Source of the DNA: Sycon ciliatum
Lineage: Eukaryota > Porifera > Calcarea > Leucosolenida > Sycettidae
Length of the DNA: 64,000 bases
Assembly: GCF_964019385.1 (NCBI RefSeq)
Contig: NC_088649.1
Coordinates: forward strand, 17,643,361-17,707,360
Direction: 5' to 3'
A program made the position numbers and the translations under genes. Under the pieces are notes generated by a model that did not search any database, was not told the DNA's origin, and worked only from the letters and a program-made list of their open reading frames with translations. How positions within the stretch are numbered: the first letter of the stretch is position 1; the number at the start of each line of letters is the position of its first letter. Positions 56,815-62,800 of this stretch are shown one piece after another.

Positions 56815-59800
56815 GTAAGTGTATTAAAATTGCAATACACGAGAGAGCTTGGAAGCTCAGGGCCCTACGCTATGCTTTTTGCCTAGCTCATCATGAATGT
56901 TATTAGAACGGATGGAAAGGATTTTTTTTTCCATTGATTGGGTTCAACGAGAGAGCTTGGAAGCTCAGGACCCTACGCTATGTTTTTCGCTAGCTCATCA
57001 TGCATGTTATTAGAACTGATTGAAATGTTTTTTCCATTGAATGGCTATAGTGCTTTACGTCGACCATGACGGCTACAATGCCCAATCATACCACAACGAA
57101 CTGATTGGCTACATCATTGTATTGCAAAAAAATTCCATCTGCTCGAATAACATGAATGATGAGCTAGGCAAAAAAAGCATAGCGTAGGGCCCTGAGCGAA
57201 ATAAATAAACTTTCTCTTGTCATTCGAGGGTATAACGACACCGTCTGCCACCTTGATGACCTTGGCAAAAAAGGATAGGAATGTTATAATTTTTTCATTT
57301 CTCCCATTTTATTTTCAAGAGATGACATTTGGTTGATAAATATGGTGGTAAAGACACACCTGGAAATATGGCGGTAAACACACGCCTGCCCACACACGCT
57401 CTCTAGGCTGCAAAGTTCTGGCACAGAGCTCTCCTTCTCACCACCACCACCATCAGTTCGCGCCTGGCGCCTGGTCGATGCATGGTTGGCGGTATCCGGC
57501 ATAGCAGGCTGGTACATCAAGTAGCGCATGGCACATAGATGATGACACAGCAACGACATAGCTCGATTGCGACGTACGTTTCGTCCCCGCTGGACTCATC
57601 AGGCAATCTTCTTCTTGGATGTCTTCATACGGAGCTTGACTCGGGAGAATGAAATTGAAGACACCACTGCAGCTGTACTTATGGTTGATAAATGGCCCAG
57701 TATCTGCGGAAATGGACCTTAGCGTGATTTTTCACAAAATGACTTTTTTTCTGATGTTGTCATCTATAGGTATCTAGTGATCACATGGCAAAGTATTATA
57801 CCGAACAAAGCAATATTGATGACCCAGAAGCCTCTCAAACAAGCATAGGTACATGTCAGGAAATACAACATTTTATCACAGTGTTTTCCACATCGGAATA
57901 CTATGTGTTACAGTGAAATAAATAAAAAATAGACAGTGTAATAAATCATCCGTCCAGTTTTTGTTGTAAAACAACTCTTGGGCAACCTCTGGCATAGAGC
58001 ATGGTTGGCCTTGATCCTCATGACTACATACCAATGAAAACTGTTTGAACGCCATCCCAAGTCTGCTGAAAATCCACAGAAGTGCAGATCAGGAGGGAGG
58101 GTGGCTACAACTACACCTGGAGTCCCAGTCTGTGCATCCCACAGGGAATACGACACAGGCACAACATTCTAACACTCCACACTTCATCTTATGCACGATT
58201 TCGAGGTAGTCCATCACTGCTGCACCTCTGTGAAATTTGAGCTCTGTTGGAACTGGCTGCATGCACGGCAGTGCGCCATGATTCCAGCACTGAGCGCAGA
58301 GAGTTCGTAGCTCATCAATCAATGTTCAGCTCTTGCCCCGTCCAAGGGGTTTGGTGTTCACCATGGAGTCCAGTGTGGGAGCCTGGGAAAATTCAGATCG
58401 TGTCACTAGCGGCAGCGCTCTTTCGTCCTGACTCGAGTTGATCCAGGGCGTTTCAGTTCGTCTACCTCTGCTGCCGTCGCCTCACTAGTTTCTCCTCGTT
58501 GAGTATTTCCCCTGAGCGGAGCTGTACGAAATTCAGAAGGGCCCTACAAGGAATTTCAGATGTCAGAAAGTACTTTTGCCAGCAGAGAGCTCCTTTGGCG
58601 GAGCGCCTAAATCAAGTTGAAATTCTCGTCGCTAAATAGGAATTGCGCGTCTACAAAACATCTTCTGGAAACTGTCGTCGTTCTCTATCAGACGCGACGA
58701 TTCCTGCCTAGGCAATCCAATGACTTCTGGCAGAGCCGGACGGTAGCTAGCTGGCCATCGTGAGCGAATTCTCCTGCTACTGGGACGATCAAAAGCATTC
58801 ATTGAATTTGTTGCGACGAACTAATTTTTTGTTTGAATGTGCAGAGCGCGAAGCAAGAGTTTTGTTGCCGTCGCAGAAAATGACTTATTCTGAAAAAAAT
58901 GATTTTCACCCGAAGGTCGATTCTCGCTGATACTGGGCCAAATATGGTGGTAAAGACACACCTGGCAATATGCCGGTAAACACACGCCTGCCCACACACG
59001 CTCTCTAGACTGCAAAGTTCTGGCACAGAGCTCTCCTTCTCACCACGACCACCATCAGTTCGCGCCTGGCGCCTGGTCGATGCATGGCTGGCGGTATCCG
59101 GCATAGCAGGCTGGTACATCAAGTAGCGCATGGCACATAGATGATGACACAGCAACGACATAGCTCGATTGCGACGTACGTTTCGTCATATTTATCAACC
59201 ATAAGTACAGCTGCAGTGGTGTCTTCAATTTCATTCTCCCCAGTCAAGCTCCGTATGAAGACATCCAAGAAGAAGATTGCCTGATGAGTCCAGCGGGGAC
59301 GAAACGTACGTCGCAATCGAGCTATGTCGTTGCTGTGTCATCATCTATGTGCCATGCGCTACTTGATGTACCAGCCTGCTATGCCGGATACCGCCAGCCA
59401 TGCATCGACCAGGCGCCAGGCGCGAACTGATGGTGGTGGTGGTGAGAAGGAGAGCTCTGTGCCAGAACTTTGCAGCCTAGAGAGCGTGTGTGGGCAGGCG
59501 TGTGTTTACCGGCATATTGCCAGGTGTGTCTTTACCACCATATTTATCAGCCATAAGTACAGCTGCAGTGGTGTCTTCAATTTCATTCTCCCGAGTCAAG
59601 CTCCGTTTGAAGACATCCAAATAGAAGATTGCCTGATGAGTCCAGCGGGGACGAAACGTACGTCGCAATCGAGCTATGTCGTTGCTGTGTCATCATCTAT
59701 GTGCCATGCGCTACTTGATGTACCAGCCTGCTATGCCGGATACCGCCAGCCATGCATCGACCAGGCGCCAGGCGCGAACTGATGGTGGTGGTGGTGAGAA

Positions 59801-62800
59801 GGAGAGCTCTGTGCCAGAACTTTGCAGCCTAGAGAGCGTGTGTGGGCAGGCGTGTGTTTACCGGCATATTGCCAGGTGTGTCTTTACCACCATATTTATC
59901 AACCATAAGTACAGCTGCAGTGGTGTCTTCAATTTCATTCTCCCGAGATGACATTTGGGTAGGTAATTCCAAGGGTACACCGCAGCTGTTTCCTATGAAA
60001 CACATCTAGGCGCTTTTCTTGTGCACTTGACAGGCCATGGCAAGCAAGGTGTTAGGTCTAGATTGGTGGAACGAAAGTGTTGTATAAACGAATTTTAATG
60101 GGTGTAGAAAGCAGGTTGTGTTTGAACCATAACTTCAGAGTGTCTCCAAATGCTCTTGCGACCAAGCCAATACGGCGCGTTACGTCCTCCCCGTAGCCGT
60201 GTAGTGAGCCGAGTGTCTTCACCTGTCGCCAAGCTTCTTTACCACAAGTTGTGCCGACATTTCTAGATGTTGTAGAGGTGGCATCTCCCAAAGTGGGTTC
60301 CAGGTAAATACGGATCCATTCAGTCTTACTGATATTGACGGTAAGACCCCATTCGGAGAAGACGCCTGCGATGACAAATGAGTCTGAAGGGAGCGAGTAT
60401 GCATTTGTCCGACATGCAGTCCGTGAATTGACCTTTTGACCACATGCCATGGGACATGGGGCCAAGGTTGCGGAAAAGTTGGGAAATAATTCGCGAAAAG
60501 AAGGAAGTTGTGAAAGTTGCGAAAGTAGCGATTTCTTCATAAACAATGAAAAGTTGCGAAAAAGGTCTTCTTTGGGAAAGGTCTAGCTAGACGCCGAGAT
60601 ATCCCTATCCACAGGAACGCCACCACCCTCTTGGATCAAGGCGTAGATGCGGCTTCCAAAGTGGTGGGATGTACAACTAAGTGTCGTTCACCGCGAATTG
60701 TCGTTATTCAGATAGTCGCTGTATCCGAAGTAAAATGTATGCGGTTAGAGGGGATTTTGCTCTGGGCATGGAAATCTTGTCGTTATTCGCGAGTTGTCGT
60801 TAAATCCGCAGTCGTTATTAGCGAAGTTGACTCTATAAGAACAATGGTGGTGAACATAGCACTAACATGTCAAGATCCAAATGTAACTTCATGGCACCAT
60901 GGATATAAAAAACACAGCCTTTTTTACACTCTTTTCTAAGCACTGTAGATGCATTGTAAAACTTGAAGTTTTATTTGGTTGGGGTTTGAAAATATCTATT
61001 TTACACATGCATTTTGTTGATATTGTCTACAGTGTAAGATGTATTCCATTTTCATTCATTCCGTTAATTTTTGCCTGTAAACGAGGCATGTAAAAACAGT
61101 AGAAGTATTGTGCGCTTTAAAAATGTTTTTTGTGTTCACCTTCTCCCTCTCTCCCTAGCTCTCTTTCTCTCCCCCCCCCCCCACCCCCTCTCTCTCTCCC
61201 TTTCCGTCTCTCTCTTTTCCCTCTCTCTCTCTCTCTCTCTCTCTCTTTCTCTCTTTCTCTCTCTCTCTCTCTCTCTCTCTCTCTCGCTCGCTCTCTCTCT
61301 CTTTGTCTCTCTCTCTCTGTCTCTCTCTGTCTCTCTGTCTCTCTGTCTCTCTGTCTGTCTCTCTGTCTCTCTCTCTCTCTCTCTCTCTCTCTCTCTCTCT
61401 CTCTCTCTCTCTCTCTCTCTCTCTCTCTCTCTCTCTCTCTCTCACTCTCTCTCTCTCTCTCTCTCTCTCTCTCTCTCTCTCTCTCTCTCTCTCTCTCTCT
61501 CTCTCTCTCTCTCTCCCTCTCTCTGTCTCTTTCGCCATGTCTGTACATATTTCTCGCTATCTCTCTCTTTCTCTCTCTCCGTCTCTCTCTCTCTATCTCT
61601 CTCTCTCTCTCTCTCTCTCTCTCTCACACACACACACACACACACACACACACACACACACACACGCACATACACACACTCTCAATCCAACCCTCTCTCT
61701 CCTTCTCTCTCTTCCCTCTCTCTGTCTCTGTCTCTTTCTCAATGTCTGTATGTCTTTCTCGCTAGCTCTCTCTCTCTCTTTCTCTCCCTCCGTTTCTCTC
61801 TCTCTGTTAGTGCTATATTCACCACCACTGTTCTTGCTTCGTACATTCACTTCACACATCAATGGGTGTAATCATCAGAAGCTTGTTAATTTAAGGAGTG
61901 TGCCTGCTGGGACTGTATGCGAGGGTTCCTGAGGGTGTGGAGTTGGCAAAGGTATCTTGCTGTGCACTGATTCCAGTCTCATTTTTTCTGTCCAGGCACC
62001 TAGAAGACAACAACCTTTTCATAGAAGATAACAACACCTTCATCGGCTTCAAGTTCCTAAACGAGTTGTAAGTTATGCTGTGGCCCAAGTCCACTGTTTT
62101 AAACCAGCTACTCGGCTGCCAGGTGCCCTATTACACACCACTTTGAGGGTCAAACCCGTAGGCTTCAGTGGCGAAATGCTAGTATAATAACTAGCAAAAT
62201 TAATTTTAGGGTACTGTATTAATTTTTTTAAGAAATTAGAGGCCACATGCCACGTACTGCTCTTTTCTCTCCCAAACTCCACACTTGCCAGCCAGATTTT
62301 TGGGGAAAAGAAAAAAATCATCAGTCACACCACTGGGACTCGAACCAGGCAAGGTCCCTGGTTCGAGTCCCGGTGGTGTGACTGATGATTTTTTCTTTCT
62401 TTCATATCTGGCTTGCAAGTGTTGAGTTTGGGAGAGAAAAGAGCAGAACGTGGCATGTGGCCTCTAATTTCCTAAAAAAAACTTTGAAACTCTCCGTGAA
62501 GTCCAAATTTGAAATTGTACTGTATTTATGTTAGAATAAAGAGGTCACATATTTGGTCGAAAATAGCATACAGACGTTCGTCTAGGAAAGCCCGTCGAAT
62601 CAATGACCCAAATCACGAATCTAGATGTACGAAAGCGCAGTTCGGAGAGTCAATGACCTTTCAACCTCAAACTCAAAGACCGACTACAAAATGTAGGTCT
62701 AGCAGCGAAGGCACAGTTCGGAGAGCCAGTCCATGACCTTTGAACCTCAAGGTCAAAGACCGATTAGCGGCTTACTAGTAAATGGCAGGTCTACCACATA

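Follow-up and report, generated by a model that had tools for sequence, protein, structure and literature searches.

A head-to-head retrozyme insertion in Sycon ciliatum

We analysed a window of 64,000 nucleotides (nt) from the calcareous sponge Sycon ciliatum (contig NC_088649.1, positions 17,643,361 to 17,707,360 of assembly GCF_964019385.1), near the end of which lies an insertion built of retrozymes, units bounded by hammerhead ribozymes. A minus array and a plus array are joined head-to-head, with a short direct repeat on either side (Table 1). Copies elsewhere in the genome begin at two preferred sites of the unit, one for each arm, and the same grammar is found in resident Penelope-like elements (PLEs). 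The insertion is probably a non-autonomous animal retrozyme, inserted by the reverse transcriptase (RT) and endonuclease of a PLE.

Each of the three hammerheads scores 35.4 bits against the Rfam type I model Hammerhead_1 (gathering score 34; E 3.7e-5 over the window), and the units are spaced at 352 nt, counted here from the base that follows the expected cleavage site (59313). An earlier note on this DNA had proposed three type I hammerheads, a 352-nt monomer and arrays meeting at 59187/59188, all of which were confirmed, and a very short stem III, which was supported. Neither the hammerheads nor the whole unit fold better than shuffled sequences; the region that holds the outer ends (sites A and B, below) folds somewhat better than shuffles in two versions (z -2.6 and -2.1), and a shorter piece of it folds worse (z 1.6).

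The plus arm (59188-59947; 760 nt) consists of unit positions 228-352, 1-352 and 1-283, and the minus arm, followed along its own strand from 59187 down to 57331, of positions 338-352, 1-352 and 1-240, giving 607 nt once a nested insertion is removed. The two arms are 98% complementary, and a 152-aa frame spans the plus array. We identified ten variable sites among the units, every one of them a singleton, and the units were therefore probably alike at the time of insertion. The flanking direct repeat, GAGATGACATTTGG, is 14 nt long and overlaps the element by a few nt on either side; the 12-bp target duplication of the earlier note is thus right within this microhomology.

The nested element, which the earlier note had missed, is 1246 bp long and splits the minus arm at unit positions 230-233. 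It has terminal inverted repeats (TIRs) of 34 nt that are 82% identical and a 4-bp duplication, and no further full copy was found within the window. Tandem and inverted repeats of 107 bp (56839-57197) adjoin the retrozyme insertion, and a string from this repeat region, CTCAGGGCCCTACGCTATG, recurs at L067:2422-2440.

Table 1. Features of the retrozyme insertion, in window positions (TSD, target-site duplication).
Feature	Position	Strand	Basis or remark
Left TSD copy GAGATGACATTT	57319..57330		direct repeat reaches 57332
Outermost minus-arm piece, unit 1-240	57331..57570	-	A-type outer 3' end at 57331; BLAST adds one matching base
Type I hammerhead with distal stem I helix	57555..57623	-	Rfam match 57565-57608; predicted cleavage between 57571 and 57570
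Middle minus-arm unit, unit 230-352	57571..57693	-	alignment to unit
Nested DNA-transposon-like insertion	57694..58939		34-nt TIRs GGCCCAGTATC; TSD AAAT 57690-57693 / 58940-58943
Middle minus-arm unit, unit 1-233	58940..59172	-	alignment to unit
Innermost minus-arm piece, unit 338-352	59173..59187	-	alignment to unit
Head-to-head junction	59187..59188		base 59187 matches both arms
Innermost plus-arm piece, unit 228-352	59188..59312	+	alignment to unit
Type I hammerhead	59275..59318	+	Rfam match; predicted cleavage after 59312
Complete 352-nt unit between two expected cleavage sites	59313..59664	+	
Type I hammerhead	59627..59670	+	Rfam match; predicted cleavage after 59664
Outermost plus-arm piece, unit 1-283	59665..59947	+	B-type outer 3' end
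'Tail', unit 241-283, past the A end, B arm only	59905..59947	+	final 3 nt GAG common with target duplication
Right TSD copy GAGATGACATTT	59945..59956		direct repeat reaches 59958

Genome-wide copies, their ends and their template

The 538-Mb genome was searched, and the unit was matched against the best 40 of 1109 first-look candidates, yielding 187 matches that cluster into about 40 places. Thirty-six of the 40 (35 and the window) were examined and hold 37 insertions, two of them at locus L050. The four places left out (C5:30021277, C5:7958008, C1:48001945 and C1:915477) contain one or two matches each among the matches listed; an older copy at L037:1-508, incomplete at the edge, and a fragment at L057:1494-1594 were dropped before insertions were counted. 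Twenty-nine of the 37 insertions are two-armed, minus then plus, with 5' ends inward, and the inverted double array, thought unusual in the earlier note, is thus the commoner form among the copies examined.

Direct repeats scoring at least 8 flank 31 of the 37 insertions, compared to 0.6% of mismatched left and right pairs, which supports the reading of the 12-bp repeat as a true duplication. The repeat is 12-14 nt long in 26 insertions and of other lengths in seven (the lengths include microhomology, and seven were scored with one mismatch allowed); it was not found by the script in four (L042, L047, L051 and L062).

The outer 3' ends of the arms fall at two sites of the unit about 40 nt apart, A at about 240 (235-247, or up to 250 in a second set of alignments) and B at about 280 (268-285, or up to 287). 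With class ranges that were set after the ends had been seen (A 230-252, B 268-290), 28 of the 29 two-armed copies could be classified, and each of these pairs an A end with a B end: A lies on the left and B on the right in 14, the reverse holds in the other 14, and A/A or B/B pairs are absent. The window insertion, ending at 240 (or 241) and 283, obeys this rule. Loci L038 and L039 appear to be copies of a single locus that was duplicated, leaving 27 independent pairs, for which the probability of reciprocity under an independent and even choice of ends is 0.5^27. The reciprocal ends therefore indicate that one start site is not used twice in an insertion.

This rule bears on two other origins of the inverted layout. 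A single cDNA that folds back and copies itself was proposed for head-to-head PLEs, by self-priming on an antisense template, from palindromes at inverted junctions, in the part of PMC3846280 that treats them; such a snap-back predicts equal ends, seen in 0 of 28 copies here, and the inner end of one arm shows no relation to that of the other (29 loci, Rayleigh p 0.89; the script missed the innermost 15 nt of the window insertion), so that we consider self-priming very improbable. A satellite-like array that recombination had inverted, or an artefact of the assembly, would fit the proneness of tandem repeats to both, and also the periodic unit variants at loci L048 and L032 described below; the copies are dispersed over many contigs, have flanking repeats of their own and share the two end positions, which makes this explanation extremely improbable.

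The arms vary in length from 42 to 4926 nt (0.1 to 14 units), with scattered inner ends. Two RTs moving in step would be expected to leave correlated inner ends; no such correlation was found at the 29 loci. Most of 30 junctions, a set that includes the older L037 copy and the window junction (counted by hand as 1), overlap by 0-4 nt, and five have extra bases. At least 1 nt is shared at 21 of the 25 gap-free junctions, compared to 44% by chance (p 4e-5), an excess that the aligner may inflate.

Variants identify the template of the two arms. Derived variants are common to both arms of a locus at 24 of 29 comparable sites, compared to 102 of 1173 between loci, and none of 2000 permutations reaches the observed within-locus sharing of 0.83 (best 0.33); the five variants that differ between arms sit in L041, L044, L049 and L058. 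Both arms of a locus therefore copy one RNA sequence. Across 36 loci, with the first insertion of L050 omitted, 200 variant sites are singletons and 10 are multi-unit, and each arm of L048 contains units of 351 nt. The template is likely to have been circular, as with the 352-nt RNA circle predicted in the earlier note; this would account for the near-identity of the units and for arms longer than one unit.

The same data bear on a linear multimer as the template of a PLE-driven insertion, a variant whose odds overlap with those of PLE-driven insertion as such. Unprocessed RNA was used by the anole PLE, for which hammerhead cleavage was not required (PMC11167929), and the shared unit variants of L048 and L032 are periodic, with higher-order periods of 5 and 3 units. 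The excess of singleton over multi-unit variants, and the near-identity at insertion of the units of a locus, including the 351-nt units of both L048 arms, argue against it, and we regard a linear multimer as rather unlikely.

Resident Penelope-like elements

We identified 109 genome matches to an RT motif pattern, compared to 4 for a reversed control. One element, PLE-1 (locus L066), contains a 906-aa frame with RYIDDVF and a YVGET stretch, which we take to be GIY-YIG-like. Among 83 relatives of the later part of this frame, six carry PF01541 (GIY-YIG) and many carry PF00078 or PF26215. PLE-1 is arranged both in tandem, at 3027 bp, and head-to-head, and carries a hammerhead-like core, CTGATGA..CGAAACG.

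The PLEs end as the retrozymes do. In PLE-1 the arms terminate at two sites separated by 41 nt, each arm at a different one, and all five classifiable head-to-head pairs (of six examined) have one A and one B end; in one of the five (C13) the plus end lies further out than expected, and the sixth pair has one B end and another at 173. Reciprocal ends were similarly identified in the one classifiable pair of PLE-3 (two examined) and in the single pair of PLE-4; the tails measure about 39 and 35 nt, and the arms of both elements were paired by position. Overall, seven of seven classifiable PLE pairs (nine examined) follow the rule, and the A-B segment of the retrozyme corresponds to the PLE tail. 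For the PLEs, flanking duplications were identified by visual inspection only, or fall within simple repeats.

Another retrozyme family, about 591 nt long, lies beside PLE-1; at the single place observed, its ends are offset in the same way, by about 30 nt. Its copies (L066:7903-9001 and L067:100-1975) have hammerheads below the gathering score, and are arranged head-to-head beside the PLE in an ATT repeat.

Further RT-bearing loci were observed. Matches to the RT motif recur with a spacing of 3819 bp close to the starts of two contigs (C2:711-19826 and C13:10047-29162), and with one of 2889-3933 bp towards the end of C1; these are possibly telomere-associated PLE arrays. PLE copies such as C3:4329961-4330067 show a constant gap of about 105 nt in alignments to the Sycon ciliatum protein P0002, perhaps a conserved intron. 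A 6.2-kb near-perfect palindrome at L078:1294-7473 contains an RT frame, in which GIY-YIG was not seen; its ends are different, and we did not use it as a further PLE case.

Proposed mechanism and known systems

The target duplication, and the two cDNA-like arms between its copies with their starts facing outward, imply that both target strands offered 3' ends and that both were extended on the element RNA. The earlier note had proposed a strand switch or twin priming. Priming from both target strands is supported, but the ends do not follow the LINE pattern: the arms start at two RNA sites, one each, the tail signature of Penelope. In twin priming the RT of a long interspersed nuclear element (LINE) primes at the 3' end of the RNA and then again inside it, likewise giving 5'-to-5' inversions with target duplications, and two RT fragments in the window were taken for LINE-like, one above and one below the Pfam cut-off. 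A LINE would leave one fixed RNA 3' end, usually with poly(A), on one side only, whereas the arms here start at preferred sites inside the unit, separated by about 40 nt, with one site for each arm; inspection of the flanks by eye showed no shared poly(A) tract, and the PLEs of the same genome follow the same grammar. LINE-type twin priming is accordingly improbable.

We propose instead the following order of steps for a PLE-driven insertion. Multimeric transcripts would cleave themselves and the monomers would be circularised. A PLE protein would then cut the two strands of the target at positions about 12 nt apart. The 3' ends left by these cuts would both prime cDNA on one RNA sequence, with site A serving one of them and site B the other. 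Each RT would copy a stretch of variable length, in many cases passing round the unit more than once, and the two cDNA ends would be joined, mostly at an overlap of 0-4 nt. In PLEs, two RT start sites delimit the tail (PMC11167929), which is located on one of the inverted pseudo-long terminal repeats (pLTRs; PMC3846280, where these are described). The anole PLE enzyme extends both target strands and is predicted to form a dimer, and the later steps are "yet to be validated experimentally" (PMC11167929).

A start site that is not reused would be expected if both primers sat on one RNA or in one dimeric complex. We tentatively suggest that a dimeric PLE enzyme might copy both arms at once from one circular RNA, with each protomer bound to one of the cut strands and starting at a separate site, the two sites being 40 nt apart. 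Such asymmetric two-primer rolling-circle reverse transcription would be a standard step of PLE insertion and not an accident.

Several observations weigh against insertion by a PLE in this manner. Eight of the 37 retrozyme insertions are one-armed, five of which (L033, L035, L037, L040 and L052) have a flanking repeat by script, and one two-armed copy (L064), with one B end and the other at 197, is unclassifiable. The periodicity of L048 and L032 is easier to reconcile with duplication after insertion, or with a multimeric template, than with a circle of pure monomer. In PLE-1, a Pfam search found no GIY-YIG domain, and RVT_1 only below the cut-off; its hammerhead core has no Rfam match up to E 1 and folds no better than shuffles. 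The anole PLE in vitro showed no difference in start site between the strands, and hammerhead cleavage was not needed (PMC11167929). Finally, the pairwise match between the retrozyme and the PLE-1 tail (the best of 587 PLE-1 windows) is weak, with shuffled sequences doing as well in 2 of 2000 simple and 22 of 5000 dinucleotide versions. A profile built from the tail regions of four PLEs fails to match the retrozyme; some match was obtained with 21 of 500 shuffles. As the profile is negative and MAFFT favours another register, we do not claim sequence homology of the two tails.

We found no account of two-armed, head-to-head retrozyme insertions with reciprocal ends in the main text of Cervera and de la Pena 2020 (PMC7229834), from which 'inverted', 'tail' and 'orientation' are absent, or in the accessible portions of the open literature searched, including PMC11722881, PMC7761336, PMC8490949 and PMC8969392; an open-literature search for papers on hammerhead ribozymes in Porifera found no papers at all. 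Plant long terminal repeat (LTR) retrozymes are similar in having a hammerhead-bounded unit thought to travel as circular RNA (PMC4918200), and differ, in the sections that compare them, in their type III hammerheads, LTRs and 4-bp duplications (PMC7761336, PMC7229834). The closest retrozymes, as far as the text of PMC7229834 describes them, are the animal non-LTR forms, which share the type I hammerhead, a unit of 170-400 nt, tandem copies and a target duplication of more than 4 bp. Their GC content is given there as below 50%, a descriptive trend that does not disqualify the 52.6% of the Sycon unit, and sponges are not among the hosts that it names.

With PLEs that carry inverted pLTRs and a tail, as outlined in parts of PMC3846280 and PMC11167929, the insertions share head-to-head arms, a 30-40-nt tail on one arm, a short target duplication, tandem copies and hammerhead motifs. 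In contrast, the 352-nt unit is too small for a telomerase-like RT and a GIY-YIG endonuclease, and is not classed as a PLE; its hammerhead also passes the Rfam type I threshold, which that of PLE-1 does not. Published passages on the subject leave open both the mobiliser of animal retrozymes ("LINEs or PLEs", "may rely on PLEs") and the origin of the head-to-head PLE layout, self-priming being one proposal (PMC3846280). The rule of one A and one B end makes that origin testable with one enzyme and one RNA, and a census of ends is a cheap genomic test for other animals. Common to the retrozymes and PLEs of one genome, this Penelope-style footprint suggests which enzyme moves these retrozymes, and how.

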